From assembly GCA_025558095.1 (NCBI GenBank), contig JAIVFI010000008.1:248001-312000 (forward strand): DNA of 64,000 nucleotides, given 5' to 3'. This document shows, piece by piece, positions 50,344 to 59,380 of this stretch (position 1 is the first letter of the stretch; each line of letters starts with the position of its first letter). The notes under the pieces are model-generated. The model worked only from the letters and a program-made list of their open reading frames with translations, ran no database searches and had not been told where the DNA came from. The translations under genes and the position numbers were made by a program. Source of the DNA: Hyaloraphidium curvatum. Lineage: Eukaryota; Monoblepharomycota; Hyaloraphidiomycetes; Hyaloraphidiales; Hyaloraphidiaceae.

Positions 50344-50490
50344 CTCTCTGCCCTGGATCCTCGTCCCGCCTTGAAACAAGAACGAAGATGTGTTTACATC
50401 TCGATCTCCCGAATGTATGCCCTCTCTTCACTAAGTTCTCCTACAGACCACCTTTCTCTTCTTTCCTTTCCCACTGGATCCAGCCCGTCC

Positions 50491-51749
50491 TCAGTGGTGC
50501 TTCGCATGCTTCCCGATGAGCCCGATGGGCAGCACCAGCCTTCCCCACGTCTCGTTGATGAGCACCGCCGTCCCTGTGTAGATGCCCACGACCCCGAGCG
50601 CCTGAACGGCAAGCGATCAGCGAAGGGCAAGTCCGCCGCCGCCGCGGGACCCACGATGGAAAACACGCCCGAGAGGATGGTGCACACGTTGCTCCAGTGC
50701 CCGACGGCGGTGAAGATGAAGCTCAGCGCCGCGAAGCCTGCCGGGAACAACCTCCGGTCAGGCGCGATCGGCCGCGGGCGGGGCACCTCGCAGGACCCAC
50801 CAAAGATGCCCATGAGCGCCAGCGAGTGCTTCGTGGTGACGACGAAGATGCCCGCGGCGATGGAGCCCCAGGTGAGGAAGCTGATGAAGAAGACCCACTT
50901 GGACTCGGCGACGAGGGCGGCGGGGACGATGCCGACGATGATCTCGATGTAGAAGAGGCCCAGTCCGATCCAGAAGAATCCGAAGGTGGTGAACGCTGTA
51001 AGGAGATCCCGGGGTCAGATGGCGCCAGGCTTGACCGCAATTACAACCACTTGTCCCCGCAAACGTCTGACCGCGCCAGAGCTCGAAAGCACCGGCAACG
51101 ACCTGCGCGATTCCGCCGTGCACCAGGGCCCCTGGCGACACGTCAGTCGGCCCGGCCCGTGGGCCCGAAGACAGATCACGGCGATCGACGCCTACAGTTC
51201 ATCGCAAGCATGATGAAGCCAGCGTTGGGCTGGATCCCGATGTTCTGTGAGGAGGTAACGTCGATCGATGCCCGACCCGGATGGAGTGCTCCGCTAACGA
51301 TGAACCCGAACAGGATCGCCGTCACCGAGAATGCGTACAGCCCGAACGGGCTCGGATTCCCGATCGCCGGGCTCCAATCCGTCACGGCGACCTTGCGCAG
51401 CGCCTCGGGGTCGTACCCGAACGCCTCGGGCCCGCGCTCGACGAACGGGAACTTGGACGCGCGGCGGGCGAACGAGGCCTGCGGGGTCAGCGCAGAGGGG
51501 GAGGGGAGGTTCTCGTTGGCGCGGTGGAAGGGGGCGGCGTCGATGGTGACAGCCGAGCCGCCTCGGGGGCGGCCGTCGGCGGGGGCGTGGCTCTCCGGGT
51601 TGAAGACCTGGAGATGGAGGCCCGCAGATCAGACGCCGCGTCCGCGGCGCGCGAAGCCGGCAACCCACGTCCGCCTGTCCGTGGAGCATCGCTTGGTCCG
51701 TGACTATCGGCTTCACCCCGCCGTCCTCCATCTCGCGCGGTCCGTCCAT
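50491..51749 (-). CDS. GPR1/FUN34/YaaH-family acetate/ammonium transporter
   Basis: Seven exons (51749-51669, 51607-51299, 51244-51196, 51131-51051, 50995-50801, 50737-50655, 50601-50491) total 909 nt, 302 residues. An N-terminal hydrophilic region leads to the signature GNPSPFGLYAFSVTAILFG. Next come GFIMLAMNWALVHGGIAQVV, AGAFELWRGQTFAGTTFTTF and GFFWIGLGLFYIEIIVGIVP, then three further membrane spans. The GGIAQ and E-x3-G-x-T-F blocks are diagnostic and are only restored when short introns (54-64 nt) are removed. Six TM segments are expected, in the plasma membrane. Relatives carry acetate import or ammonia export. The retrotransposon lies just beyond its 3' end. Confidence 0.9.
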
Positions 51750-52232: not shown

Positions 52233-54013
52233 CTAGAAGCACTTTCTGTGAACGATCGATGGCCCGGCGTCGTCGTACTCCTCTTTCGTGATCCACATCT
52301 GCTGGAACGTCGACAGCGATGCCAGGATGGAGCCACCTGCAGGATCCGGAATCTGAGAAGGCGCTCTCCTCTGCAGTGAGCCCGACGCACCAATCCAAAC
52401 GGAGTACTTGCGCTCCGGCGGGGCGACGATCTTGACCATCATGGTCTGCGGCGCCAGCTGCGAGACCTCATAATGCAGGCGCTCTGCGATACCCTCAAAC
52501 ACTGCGTGGGAGAAGAGTTCAGCATCGGGGGGTAACAGCGGCAGAGACCGACCCACTTGTGGTGCCACCCGCCAGGACAATGTTGCCCCAGAGCTCCTTC
52601 CTGATGTCCACGTCGCACTTCACGATGCTGTCGTGGATCATCTGGTGAATGCCAGGTTGTTCCGTTCCGATCAAACTGGGCTGGAAGAGGGCCTGGAGCG
52701 ATCACGACGGGCAGAATGCTAGGACAGAATCGCAGCTCCGATCGACGGCTGGAACACACCTCCGGCGCGCGGAAGCGCTCGTTGCCGACCGTTATCATCT
52801 GGCCGTCGGGAAGCTCGTATTGTTTCTCTACCGCGCTGGAGTCTTGGGTATCCAACAGTTCTTTGGCGAAGTCTGCGCGCGGGTTTCCAATCAGCCCGAT
52901 TCAGGGAGCTCCAAAGGGCACGATTTGCTCACCGAATGCCACGTAGCCAAGCTTCTCCTTTATGTCCCTCACGATCTCGCGCTCGGCGGTGGTCGTGAAG
53001 GAATACCCGCGTTCAACGAGCAGCTTCATCATGTAGTCCGTAAGGTCCCTTCCGGCCAAATCCAGTCTCGTTATAGCGTGGGGCACCGCGTAGCCTTCGT
53101 AGACGGGTATGACGTGCGTCACGCCTTCGCCGGAATCGAGGACGACGCCTTGGAAGGAGGTCGGTGTCGCTCATGGGCAACACATCACGGAGAGGGGAAC
53201 CTACCGGTGTTTCGACCCGAAGCGTACAGGGCCAGCACCCCTTGAATTGCGACGTACATCTCTGCCGGAGAAGGAACGTGAGTCAGGATCTGCGGACGTG
53301 CAGTGCGGTTGGTGCCCTTACGGGGATGGTTGAATGTCTCGAAGGATATTTGGGTGAGCCTTTCCCGGTTCGCCTTTGGGTTCAACGGAGCTTCCGCTGC
53401 CCGGAAGCGGAATGTTAGCGACTCCGGATTATGGGATAGGGGCCGGACCAACTCAAAAGGATCGGATGCTCCTCAGGAGCGATACGGAGCTCGTTGTAGA
53501 ATGTGTGATGCTACCGCAAGGCAATCAGCATGTCGTGGGAGTGCGGACGGCGCAGATACGTGCCAGGATCTTGTCCATGTCGTCCCAATTGGTGACAATG
53601 CCGTGTTCAATCGGGTATTTGAGAACCAGGAGGCCTCTCTTGGCAACAGCTTCGTCCCCGACGTAGGCATCTTTGGTTCCCATGCCGACCATGACGCCCT
53701 GGCGTGCGGAAACCGCGCGATTGTCCGGTTGTTCGTCAGAAGCAAGCGATGGCCCCCTGCGTCGCCGGGGCACGCAGGGTCCACGCACCTGATTCCTCGG
53801 GCGTCCGACGATGCTCGGGAACACGGCGCGCGGGGCATCCTCGCCGGCGAAGCCCGCCTTGATCATGCCGCTGCCAATGTCGATGACGATGGGCTGGATT
53901 CCTTCCCCCTCCTGGCCGCGCGCGCCGGAGATGGCGGCCAGCGCTCCGGCGGCGAGCGCGGCGGCGCGGGCGATGCGGGCGACGCGGGAGTGGCGCTGGT
54001 GACGGCGTGCCAT
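52233..54013 (-). CDS. Actin with a 34-residue N-terminal targeting-like extension
   Basis: Ten exons (54013-53789, 53698-53564, 53510-53453, 53396-53322, 53261-53205, 53148-52933, 52872-52760, 52692-52557, 52501-52391, 52336-52233) total 1,230 nt, 409 residues against 375 for canonical actin. From [20 protein letters not shown] to the C-terminal [10 protein letters not shown] it is collinear with conventional actin. It keeps the D-loop [17 protein letters not shown], His in [14 protein letters not shown], Gln in [14 protein letters not shown], the phosphate loop [16 protein letters not shown] and the adenosine loop [15 protein letters not shown]. The extension starts [16 protein letters not shown], then [14 protein letters not shown]. 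It lacks acidic residues and could be a secretory signal peptide or a mitochondrial presequence. There is no internal ATG before the actin core. Intron 2 fits only as GC-AG (53563-53511); its GT alternative breaks the frame. Confidence 0.9.
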
Positions 54014-54156
54014 CGCGAATGCAGGAGTCGGGGCCGGTATGGGACACGCCTGACGCAGTGGGCCCTGAGCCCGCCAGCCATGCAGGGAGACCTGTCCCCA
54101 GTCCACAGGTTAATCGCACCCCCGCGAACTGCCGTAATCGGCCTTCGGGCAGCGCG
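54014..54156. promoter_or_regulatory. 143-bp divergent promoter of the actin / propeller-actin pair
   Basis: The start codons of the two actin-fold genes are only 143 bp apart, so they likely share regulation. No motif recognised. Confidence 0.65.
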
Positions 54157-57057
54157 ATGGCTGGCCGCTACGCCGCGCTGGCCTGCGCGGTGCTCGCCGG
54201 TCTCGCCGCCGCCGCGGAAGCCGCGCGGTGGACGAACATCGCCGTCGCGGGCGTGCCCCCTTCCGACAATCTGGTGGGCCCCTCCCCTGCCCTGTGCCGG
54301 CCCGGATCTGACGTGCGCTCAGGTGGATATTGCATTCAACCCGGCAAACAAGTTATTCCTCGCCGCCGGCCTCCTCGGCAACATCTACGGTTTCTCAGGC
54401 GCTTCCAGGGCCGCGGCAGGGACGCGCAATGGCACCTTTTCCCTGCAGCTGGACACGGACTACAATATCTCGAGCATCGTGAGAATCACGCGTCGTTACG
54501 GCTGCGGAGCAAAGTGGGCTCATTCCCGATCCCAGAGCTGCCCGGTCGCGGGGCAGTGCATCGCCGCCGGAGCAGGCCGGCCCATCTCAACGTGGCAAGC
54601 CGCGGGATGGTCGATCAGGCAGGCGCTTGCGGTGCCAAGGACGTTTACGTTTTCGTACATTGATTGTGTGGACGCCACCTTCTGCGTGGCGGTCGGCGCC
54701 GACGCCGCGCTGGCCGATGAGACCGGCAAAACCGGAGGTGCGTTGTGGTCACGGGCGCGCCGTAGCTCCACTGATCGTTACCGTGCTATGCAGGCCTGAT
54801 CTTCGTGAGAAGGAACGGAACATGGATTCTCTCTCAAGCTTCGATCCCCGCCATGATCGACGTCACTTGCTCCTCCCGCACCGACTGCACGGCCGTCGGC
54901 GACCTGTCCACCGTTTTGGCATTCAACGGCACCAAGTGGAACCGCATCGTTTTCCCGAATGCCACCTCGGATCCTTTCAAGGTCGTGCAGGTCGTTGGAG
55001 ACACCACGTTCATTTTCCGGACCGAGAGCGCCGCAGACGGCGGCACCGTCGCTCGCATTTACTACTACAGCAAGTCTCGCGGGACCTTCGACATGGTGCC
55101 GCCGTCCGTCCTTTCGGGGGTTTCGGATCTCATCAACATCAACTGCCCGACGAAAACCGACTGCATTGCTCTCGGCCTCGACAGTGACGCTTACGGCAAC
55201 GTCATCTGCCGCTGGAAGGGGCCCTCACCTACGGGCTGGACCAGAGGTGGATCGTGAGGCAGTCTGGCGCATCCAGCAACTGACCCACATCGCCCCGTGC
55301 AGATTCGGTGAATGCGACCATCATCAAGGGCATCTTCAACGCCGTGGAGTGCTCGACGCCGTGCGAGAGGAGCATTTCGGACAGATGCTGCCAGTGCGTC
55401 GCCGTTGGCGAACACGGCGTCGCTGCTGTGACCAGACCTACGCTGGTGAGCGGAACCGTTCCACGTTCGTCCTTCCATGCATCAACCCTGCCCTCCCAGG
55501 CCAGGACCTGCCTTTCGAGCAAACCGGACCCCAAGGCGCAGAGGATCCGCAGCGGTCAGCCGTCCGTCACGACCCCGTTCAAGCCCGAGGTTTTCCTCGC
55601 CAAGCAGGCCCTCGACGCGTCCAAGGTACTTGTGCTGGACCTCGGATCGACCACCGTGCGCGCCGGTTACGCCGGAGACGGCACGCCGCAGTTCAGCTTC
55701 CCGAACGTCTACGTGACGCTAGCCAACGGGACGACCCTGGTGGGCCAGCCGGCGGTCGACTTCCGCAGGCCTACCAAAGCCCCGATCGTCAACGGCATTC
55801 TTTCGGACACGTGAGTCGAGAACGGATGCGCGATCTTGCCGCACCGCTGATCCGCGCATCCCAGGCCCGGCCTCGTCCTCGTGATAAAGTACGCGCTCGG
55901 CCTCCTCGGCGTCCGCAACACGGCCCAGGTCGCCAACAAGCTCATCCTTCTGGTCTCGCCACTCAATACCATGGCGGTGCGCACGGCCTTTTCTGCCAGG
56001 ATCATGACCGAGTTCTCCCCCGCGGCGCTCTGGGTGGGCCAGCCCGCGCTCGTGGAGCCGTTCATCACGGGATCGGGTGCGTCTTTGCTCGTCTTCCGTG
56101 ATCGGCTATTGGCTCATCATCGGCTCGGATGTGCAGTCTCGGACGGGACCCAGGCCCTCTCATTGGATTTCGGACAGACCGCGACCGCCGTTCCTGTCTT
56201 CAAGGACAACGGCAACATCTTCACCTACCTGTCCGCGATCAGGACCACTACGCTCGTCGCCACGAACCTGGACGCCTACATCGCCCGCCAGCTCCGCATC
56301 ACCACCACTCAGGCTGCCGAGCTCAAGCAGGCCCGCAACGTGTTCTTTGCTTCCGTCCCCGACGCCGGCGCATCCAGGGGCAGAACGCCGCCCATCGGCT
56401 TCAGGCTCGCCAACGGCACCAACGTCACCGTCCCCGGCGACCTGAGGTGGACGATCCCGGAGGCGATCTTCAGGCCCGGCATCATCGGCGTCAGGGGACC
56501 CGGGTTCGCCGCCATCGCAGCCGCGGCCGTGGCTGCCTCCCCCCAGTCCTACAGGGCCGGGGCCGTGTCCATGAAAATCGTCGTCGCGGGCGGATCCACC
56601 CTGTTCAGGTCGTTCGGCGACCGGCTGCGCATCGAGATCGGCAAGCTGTCGCCTTGGAACATGGTCAGGGGGAACATCGACAACACCCAGGCGCTCCACA
56701 ACTTCACCAACATCTTGATGGCCCCCGGCAGGATCGGTGCCGCGTTCAGGGGCGCCAGCGGGCTAGGCGGTGGGTTGCCGGTTGCCCACCACCGATCGTT
56801 TCCGGCACCCTCGATCTCATCCCTGCCGGCAGCTGCCCCTGCTGCCGACGGACCCGACTACGTGTTCCCGGCAAACTTCAGCGCATCCGGCGCGGCGGCC
56901 TTTGGGAGTGGGTGCCTGCCGCCCGCGGTGTCGCGCTGTCTGATCTCACACCGACTTGCCAGCCGTGTGCCTGCCGCCCAACTCGGCGATCTGCGCGTGC
57001 GACAATGCGCAGGCCTCGCCATGCAGCGTTTCCGGGAGTGCGTGCGTGTGCACCTGA
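54157..57057 (+). CDS. Secreted propeller-like repeat protein fused to a divergent actin-fold domain
   Basis: Modelled exons: 54157-54273, 54323-54478, 54536-54737, 54794-55246, 55303-55445, 55500-55810, 55865-56076, 56137-56769, 56833-56907, 56963-57057 (2,397 nt, 798 residues; introns 55446-55499 and 56770-56832 are in-frame and optional). Signal peptide MAGRYAALACAVLAGLAAAA. Residues 25-420 hold repeats of a Cys-x5-Cys-x-Ala-x-Gly pattern (CPVAGQCIAAG, CVDATFCVAVG, CSSRTDCTAVG, CPTKTDCIALG), propeller-like. Then an actin fold: VLVLDLGSTTVRAGYAGDG, PIVNGILSD, LSLDFGQTATAVPVF, RWTIPEAIFRPGIIG and VVAGGSTLFRSFGDRL. A Cys-rich tail ends CSVSGSACVC. More than ten N-glycosylation sequons fit an ER route. 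The second phosphate loop has Ala where actin has its catalytic His. Confidence 0.83.
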
Positions 57058-57318: not shown

Positions 57319-58532
57319 TCACTCGCCCCGCTGCCTCTTGATCTTGACCTTCTCCTCCTCCTGCGGCACCACCGCCTCGGCCGGCTGCTGCAACAGCACC
57401 AGCTGCTGCCCGCCGTAGCCCTCCCCCCCGACCATGACGAACTGCCCCAGCCCGCCCAGCCCCTGCACGCCGGGCGACGACAGGGCGTAGAACAGCTGCC
57501 CGTTGGCGCCCTGAACGAGGTACGGCATCGACACGGCCTGGGGCTGCTGCTGCTGGCTGGGGAAGGTGTAGACGGGGGAGTAGTTGAGCGGGGGGGTGTA
57601 GGGGTCGCCGCCGTGCAGGAGCGGGGTGGCCGTGGCGGCAGGTGGCGGGGTGGGGGGCTTGCTGGCCGGTTCCGTCGGGGGGGTGGAGACGGCGGGCGGG
57701 GTGGCGGCGGGGGAGGGCTTGGCGGAGCGGCGCGGCTTGCGCGGCGCGGAGGGAGCCGCGGCCGGCTTGGGCGGCGGCGGGGCAGGCGCGGGTTCGGGGT
57801 CCTCGGGGGGGCCGGCGGCGCCGGACTCGTCGTCCAGCTCCGAGGGGTCCGAGTTGAGGCACGCCTGGATCAGGTTCTTGCCCTGCTCGCGGGTGATGAT
57901 GGGCTGGAGCTTGGGCGTGGCAAATGTGTAGACATGGCCCGTTTCAGAGGCCACCAGCAGCAGGACCTGCGTGCCCGTGAGGGTTGAGAGCTCGTAGGCC
58001 TGGAAGGCGGCGGCAATGACGGGCGAAAAGGAGGCAAGGAGCGTTAGATGCCATTTCAGAAATGAAAAAGGCCTGGCGACGGCCAGCGACCAGGGAGGGG
58101 TGAATCGACCGAGGGCGGTCGGGCTCGCCGCAGCTGTGCCCTCCCGGTGCGGCACCCATCCGCTGCAGCCCGTCCTTTGGCCGCGGTATGCCTCTCCGAC
58201 CCGTTTTCCGCCACCCGGGACCCGAGTCCGACGACGCACCTTCTTCATGATCCCGGCCTTGCGCTTCGAGAAGGTGATGTGCCTGCGGCTCTTGTCGTGG
58301 ATGTACTCGATCTTTATCTTGCGCCTGCCCTGCCTGGCGGGCTTGCCGCCGCCGTCGTCGCCGTCGGACGAGCCCATGTCGTCGTCATCGTCGGCAGCTG
58401 GGCGGGGGTGGGGGTCAGGTGGGCGGGGCTGCCGGCGGCGGGTGGCCCACGTCTGCCGTTCTGCGCGGCGGCGAGCATCTGGTGCGAGAGGTGCGCGATG
58501 TCCTGCGGCTGCAGCAGCGCCTGCTTGCTCAT
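57319..58532 (-). CDS. MADS-box transcription factor, SRF/MCM1 type
   Basis: Three exons (58532-58451, 58397-58240, 57999-57319; introns 53 and 240 nt) total 921 nt, 306 residues. The start MSKQALLQPQDIAHLSHQML is followed by an acidic stretch. The MADS box is RRKIKIEYIHDKSRRHITFS and KRKAGIMKKAYELSTLTGTQ, then VLLLVASETGHVYTFATPKL and the SAM extension IITREQGKNLIQACLN. The 240-nt intron falls inside the MADS box after GIMKK. The C-terminal half is Pro/Ala-rich with a short Gln run, like an activation domain, and ends KVKIKRQRGE. It binds CArG-like DNA as a dimer with cofactors. The SRF type is separated from MEF2/RLM1 by KIKIEYI and TGTQVLLLV. Confidence 0.94.
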
Positions 58533-59380
58533 CGTCTGCGGCGGCCGTCAGCGGATGGCCGGAGGGGCCGCGCCACGCTCGACGGCAGGCGGCGGCGGGC
58601 GCCCGGACGACGCCCGCGCGCCCGGGGCCGCGACGCACCTCGCGCTGGGGGCACCACGGGTGGTTGCGCGGGCCCAATGGGACCGGAGTTCCACGCTCTC
58701 CGAAAGGGAAAAGGCTCGCTCGCTCGCTAAGGAAACGGGGCTGGGGTGAAGGTGGTTGTGAGGCTGAAAACGATGAAAAGGGAAGGAGGTCGCCCCCACA
58801 CACTGCCCCGCCCCAGCAGGGACCTCTCATGGCCTCCAAACACCGGGGAGAAGGGCTCAATCTGCTTTTATCCGTTTGGATCTCTTGAATATGTGGTGGA
58901 GGCGGTTGACGCCGTCAGGGGCGGCCGCGAGGGGCGGCCGCGAGCCGACGGGTTCATCACTACCACCGAAACCGAGGCGCGCAACGCCAAACGTGTTTCA
59001 AATGGCCTGCAATCGATGGCACCTGGTGCCATTTGGCCTGATGGCCCTTCTTTGGACGTCCAGAGGTGAGTTTCGAGTCGGCCGATATCCAGGTGCCCGG
59101 AAGAGCATCCGGGCCGAGTCCATCACCGCACTGTGGGGCCAATCTGCGAATCTTCTCTGCGTCTTTGATCGATTAGCGGTGCCATGGCCAAGTCTCATGA
59201 TACGCCAAGCGCCCGATGCCTTGTCGCGGCACGGCTCAATGAGTTAGCCGCCCGTGCCGAACACCACCGTCTCCCGCTCCGAGCCCCGCTCCTCCCGAGA
59301 CCGGCTCGTTCACGGCCGTTCCAACGCCGTCTCCCGAATTTGCACCCTTCGCCGAGGCCACCGCGCCCCCTCCGCCCGCG
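58533..59380. other. Divergent intergenic, 848 bp
   Basis: Upstream regions of the MADS-box gene (-) and the dienoyl-CoA isomerase gene (+). Contains short open frames without support; presumed promoters and 5' leaders. Confidence 0.45.

Follow-up and report, generated by a model that had tools for sequence, protein, structure and literature searches.

An actin with a predicted signal peptide and its divergently transcribed actin-fold partner in Hyaloraphidium curvatum: a probable actin system of the secretory pathway

Two adjacent, divergently transcribed genes of Hyaloraphidium curvatum at positions 52233-57057 of a 64,000-nucleotide window (the whole stretch analysed, C8:248001-312000) encode a full-length actin with a predicted signal peptide and a partner in which a head of cysteine repeats is joined to a divergent actin fold of its own. 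This suggests that an actin system, not described so far, works outside the cytosol, and on the features described below we consider it probable that both proteins enter the secretory pathway. The genome comprises 31.9 Mb in 55 contigs, and the G+C content of the DNA is 67%. Gene models were built with a purpose-written splice-aware protein-to-DNA aligner and conceptual translation, with the yeast actin sequence serving as query and yardstick. Families were assigned by searching the genome contigs and the spliced proteins with the Pfam Actin profile, and residue numbers such as N12, D154 and C374 are those of conventional actin. The original prediction, made from the letters of the window, had placed such a pair here; its coordinates proved exact, as did the distance from one start codon to the other, exactly 143 base pairs (bp; 54014-54156).

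The actin gene of the window (52233-54013, minus strand) consists of ten exons (54013-53789, 53698-53564, 53510-53453, 53396-53322, 53261-53205, 53148-52933, 52872-52760, 52692-52557, 52501-52391 and 52336-52233), which were defined by spliced alignment and translation, and encodes a protein of 409 amino acids. The Pfam Actin profile matches this protein over its full length (467.7 bits, E = 3.3e-140), with residues 37-409 aligned to model positions 2-410, and the predicted complete conventional actin behind a 34-residue N-terminal extension was thereby recovered. Sequence identity is 77.1% to the conventional actin of the same genome and 73.9% to yeast actin. The residues D11, S14, K18, Q137, D154, H161, K213, E214 and G302 are all present and D157 is replaced by E, such that the nucleotide-binding residues are largely intact, as is the D-loop. 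When the alignment was inspected by eye, the D-loop and several filament contact stretches were found to be conserved. By sequence, this protein counts as a true actin.

The partner gene (54157-57057, plus strand) has nine exons (54157-54273, 54323-54737, 54794-55246, 55303-55445, 55500-55810, 55865-56076, 56137-56769, 56833-56907 and 56963-57057) separated by eight introns of 49-63 nucleotides, all of them GT-AG. Its product of 817 amino acids contains 11 N-glycosylation sequons and is composed of a signal peptide predicted by simple criteria (MAGRYAALACAVLAGLAAAAEA, 54157-54222), a propeller-like region of cysteine repeats (54323-55445), an actin fold (approximately residues 415-785, 55603-56907) and a Cys-rich tail with six cysteines (VCLPPNSAICACDNAQASPCSVSGSACVCT, 56963-57057), all on the plus strand. 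Four exact copies of the motif C-x5-C-x-A-x-G are found at residues 112, 154, 203 and 295, a number that was reached or exceeded in none of 20,000 shuffled sequences, and a Cys-rich variant follows at residues 345-360. Successive repeats start 42, 49 and 92 residues apart, which is compatible with blades of about 46-50 residues. Pfam DUF4394 matched the head weakly and below its cut-off (E = 0.035), and AlphaFold, run on the single sequence of exon 3 alone, produced a low-confidence model with a mean predicted local distance difference test score (pLDDT) of 53.6 and no significant fold match. While a signal-peptide-like start, repeats, actin fold, sequons and cysteine tail were thus all recovered as predicted, the beta-propeller fold of the head is putative and is read from the repeats alone. 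The actin fold is recognized by the Pfam Actin profile from residue 415 onwards (E = 2.1e-24), and the best match of the partner in the PDB is Arp1 (E = 2.4e-17). This fold is free of cysteine, keeps the equivalents of D11 and D154 as well as the Gly-Gly-Ser/Thr adenosine loop of actin, and lacks the D-loop. It is approximately 24% identical to actin and about 25% or less identical to every actin or actin-related protein (Arp) compared. In a tree that excluded Arp5, Arp6, Arp8 and Arp10, the two partner copies included formed a separate long branch, without orthology to any named Arp class. NCBIfam gave no match for the partner, and no model for an actin fold combined with a disulfide-rich repeat head was found in Pfam or NCBIfam.

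Matches to the Pfam Actin profile revealed a second divergent pair on contig C24 (L013), in which a leader-bearing actin of 400 amino acids (L013:6359-8123, plus strand) and a partner of 814 amino acids (L013:5779-2895, minus strand) are separated by 579 bp without detectable similarity to the 143-bp region of the window. Intron positions match between the C8 and C24 loci for both genes: nine of nine actin introns lie at identical codons and in identical phases, and the partner copies have the same exon structure. At the intron that follows codon 86 of conventional actin, the window gene has GC-AG borders and the C24 copy GT-AG. Both leader-bearing actins fall into a single clade (support 96/93), in which the C24 actin occupies the longer branch. 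The actin copies are 59% identical, with a synonymous divergence (dS) of 1.43 and a ratio of nonsynonymous to synonymous divergence (dN/dS) of 0.24, and the partner copies are 85% identical (dS 0.44, dN/dS 0.19). Both genes of the pair are under purifying selection, with dN/dS about 0.2. At the nucleotide level, the partner loci (window 54157-57057 and L013:5779-2895) are approximately 84% identical including their introns, whereas the actin introns no longer align. Intact reading frames and the low dN/dS led us to reject a pseudogene status of the window pair, and the second locus an artefact of the assembly or of the gene models. A leaderless divergent actin on contig C12 (L023, C12:668145-669624), which is 74% identical to the conventional actin, may be the closest cytosolic relative of the leader-bearing actins. 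Since four intron positions are common to this gene and the leader-bearing actins, the latter seem to have arisen from a C12-like cytosolic actin.

In contrast to cytosolic actin, which carries no targeting leader, the window actin has signal-peptide features in its 34-residue leader. The predicted signal peptide comprises 33 residues (53915-54013, minus strand) and would likely be cut before Q34, at A-R-G/Q. The C24 actin starts with MAGPSVWSVVVRVLAAAVAALAVLGNAAA followed by QDTGDE, which by eye is a textbook signal peptide. Simple criteria classify each of the four leaders in the two pairs as signal-peptide-like, but none of seven N-termini of other actins and Arps; among 1044 open ATGs in this DNA, 1.5-2.3% are so classified. 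By the same criteria, each of the four proteins has n-, h- and c-regions, with an atypical, Arg-rich n-region in the window actin. The two actin leaders differ in sequence, yet each has a hydrophobic core as well as small residues at positions -3 and -1, and their likely cleavage sites, A-R-G/Q in the window and A-A-A/Q on C24, share one alignment column. If the leader were untranslated or non-functional, the window gene would encode a divergent cytosolic isoform. The conventional actins of this genome begin with an exon of six codons followed by an intron, so an unseen upstream exon could in principle replace the leader. However, at each locus no in-frame ATG other than that of the leader precedes the actin fold, the G+C content at third codon positions of the leaders is coding-like (0.90 and 0.80), and this type of leader recurs in two copies whose introns have diverged beyond alignment. 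A cytosolic isoform is therefore very unlikely.

Further indications of entry into the secretory pathway come from the sequons and cysteines. Conventional actin contains exactly one sequon, N12-G-S, which lies in the phosphate-binding loop, and an N12-G-S/T sequon was found in yeast actin and in six proteins of this genome, namely both conventional actins, the C12 actin, Arp1, Arp2 and Arp3. Both leader-bearing actins instead carry I or L as residue 12, and neither protein contains any sequon; among 182 otherwise invariant positions, ten are altered in both. Each of these actins has two cysteines (C285 and C374), compared to five in conventional actin. The partners on C8 and C24, by comparison, share ten sequons and 21 cysteines. 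Sixteen cysteines are invariant across these two proteins and a third partner copy on contig C43, among them all six of the tail. The cysteines of the repeat region are all kept on C24, and those within the shared part are also kept on C43. Because two duplicated loci, four signal-peptide-like leaders, the loss of the N12 sequon and the conserved sequons and cysteines of the partner agree, targeting of the pair to the endoplasmic reticulum (ER) is well supported, in line with the original prediction that the two products leave the cytosol.

Our preferred explanation is a dedicated actin system of the secretory pathway. In its boldest form, which we hold with less than even confidence, the signal-peptide actin and the secreted propeller-actin partner would make up a filament system that co-assembles in the secretory pathway or the cell wall, with the actin folding without the chaperonin CCT. 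Signal peptidase, cutting before Q34, would expose an acidic N-terminus of the usual kind and leave a mature chain as long as a normal actin. The partner would be exported as an N-glycosylated propeller-like protein that is rich in disulfides and carries a divergent actin fold of its own. The two proteins would enter the ER and then reach the cell surface, the wall or a secretory compartment. We infer onward passage from the ER because no HDEL-type retention signal and no hydrophobic anchor is visible at the C-termini of the pair's proteins. Outside the cytosol, the window actin would most likely form filaments or short oligomers, and the actin fold of the partner would most likely bind or cap an actin end or mix into the polymer. 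The propeller-like head may bind a surface or glycan ligand and thereby anchor the partner. Direct co-assembly of actin and partner, taken by itself, is possible but falls somewhat short of an even chance.

Several points weigh against such a system. The chief difficulty is that folding of conventional actin requires the cytosolic chaperonin CCT, which would be out of reach for a co-translationally exported actin. The nuclear Arp4 homologue also lacks N12 and has V in its place, indicating that loss of this residue is not specific to ER passage, and the leaders were judged to be signal-peptide-like by simple criteria. In addition, the leader of the window actin contains seven Arg and no acidic residue within the first 30 positions, and its n-region is amphipathic (hydrophobic moment 0.42), so that mitochondrial import is possible for the window copy alone. 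All four leaders resemble signal peptides by the simple criteria, but that of the window actin fits a mitochondrial presequence as well. In this case, the window actin would be directed to mitochondria and only the partner would be secreted. The leader of the C24 actin, with a single Arg and a long unbroken hydrophobic core ending in A-A-A/Q, does not fit this explanation, an uncharged core of 15 residues as in the window leader is unusual for presequences, and sequon loss suits the ER rather than mitochondria. We consider a mitochondrial destination of the window actin improbable.

Other such points concern the joint function of the two proteins. The difference in dS between partner (0.44) and actin (1.43) indicates that the two genes have not evolved in step, and the simplest reading would be that the actin pair is older, whereas the partner underwent gene conversion or was duplicated more recently. 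The third partner copy (G000:C43:60186-62443; L032:5687-7944), which is 50% identical over 638 residues, has no adjoining actin gene. The first 178 residues of this copy could not be located, and a Lys/Thr-rich linker joins its repeat head to the actin fold. In the C24 actin, Q137 is replaced by E, D154 by V and K336 by A, and due to these losses the protein is probably a non-hydrolysing actin and not an active ATPase. The postulated pairing is supported by the divergent arrangement kept at two loci, but the solo copy on C43 indicates that a partner can occur with no actin beside it. It is conceivable, though on balance rather unlikely, that both proteins are secreted without cooperating, with a promoter shared by co-regulated secretome genes and a partner fold that serves as a divergent domain for binding ATP or a ligand and has no part in actin assembly. 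The solo copy, the very different dS values and an actin fold with such low identity to actin and without D-loop are all consistent with this explanation, whereas the preservation of the pair at two loci with both genes constrained, and the partner's retention of the adenosine loop and of residues equivalent to D11 and D154, argue against it. A second alternative is a secreted effector set, in which an actin mimic, together with the propeller-actin partner, targets the actin of a host or prey organism. The C24 actin, which has lost catalytic residues and yet is encoded by an intact and constrained gene, resembles what a filament blocker might be, and the presence of several family copies in one genome, together with the lack of relatives in bacterial, archaeal, viral and plasmid collections, would also be compatible. 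However, no host-entry signal was identified, the sequons and cysteines of the partner suit extracellular and not cytosolic action, and the window actin, its nucleotide residues intact, shares 77% identity with the actin of the fungus itself, so we attribute only a small probability to an effector function. In the viral, phage, bacterial, archaeal and plasmid collections, which do not include fungal genomes, no relative of the partner was detected except one plasmid match at chance level. A viral or bacterial origin of the pair, considered as a further candidate, is unsupported, as no relatives occur in those collections.

The pair adjoins a gene for an SRF-type (Mcm1-like) MADS-box protein of fungal type (57319-58914, minus strand). 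Downstream of the actin lies a likely member of the GPR1/FUN34/YaaH family (50394-51628, minus strand; weak match, E = 0.0023), which would encode a putative acetate transporter. Near the C43 partner, a rhodanese and P-loop protein similar to tRNA 2-selenouridine synthase is encoded (L032:3497-4771, minus strand), which would be unusual for a fungus. The conventional actin genes L018 (C1) and L021 (C32) code for identical proteins with eight and seven introns, respectively, and do not share intron positions 18.0, 44.0 and 85.2. IFT57 was not detected above its cut-off in the genome, and the fungus is possibly without a flagellum.

Actin is regarded as a protein of the cytosol and nucleus whose folding depends on CCT. 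We found no signal-peptide-bearing actin gene, whether described as secreted, lumenal or ER-targeted, in the open full-text literature, and the original prediction likewise knew of no eukaryotic system in which a conventional actin is co-regulated with a secreted actin-like partner, although this absence is weak evidence because most subscription journals lie outside that literature. A review of the evolution of actin networks contains neither the term 'secreted' nor 'signal peptide' (PMC12050087). If the proposed targeting is correct, a dedicated signal-peptide actin gene that is duplicated and constrained would be a natural test of what actin needs for folding and polymerisation and could show whether export of filament systems is possible. 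The partner would add the union of an actin fold with a disulfide-rich repeat head, an architecture for which neither Pfam nor NCBIfam yielded a model.

Among known systems, conventional actin (PF00022; yeast Act1, human ACTB) is the closest to the window actin, which resembles it over the full length (77%/74% identity to the genome's own and yeast actin) and largely keeps the nucleotide residues and the D-loop, but differs by its signal peptide, the absence of the N12 sequon and of three of five cysteines, and the secreted partner alongside. The partner is similar to remote members of the Arp1-Arp10 series in that its fold has diverged to about 24% identity, whereas its signal peptide, propeller-like repeats, sequons and Cys-rich tail set it apart from them. 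Extracellular or surface actin, reported as a moonlighting or leaked protein, derives from ordinary actin genes that encode no signal peptide. It shares with the window actin the location outside the cytosol, predicted here from sequence, but the latter has a dedicated gene with a signal peptide. The ER-lumenal BiP/Hsp70 and the ecto-apyrases are ATPases of the actin superfamily that work in the secretory pathway. They have in common with the proposed system an actin-fold ATPase in this pathway, but the resemblance is limited to the distant superfamily fold, whereas the sequence of the window protein is that of actin proper.

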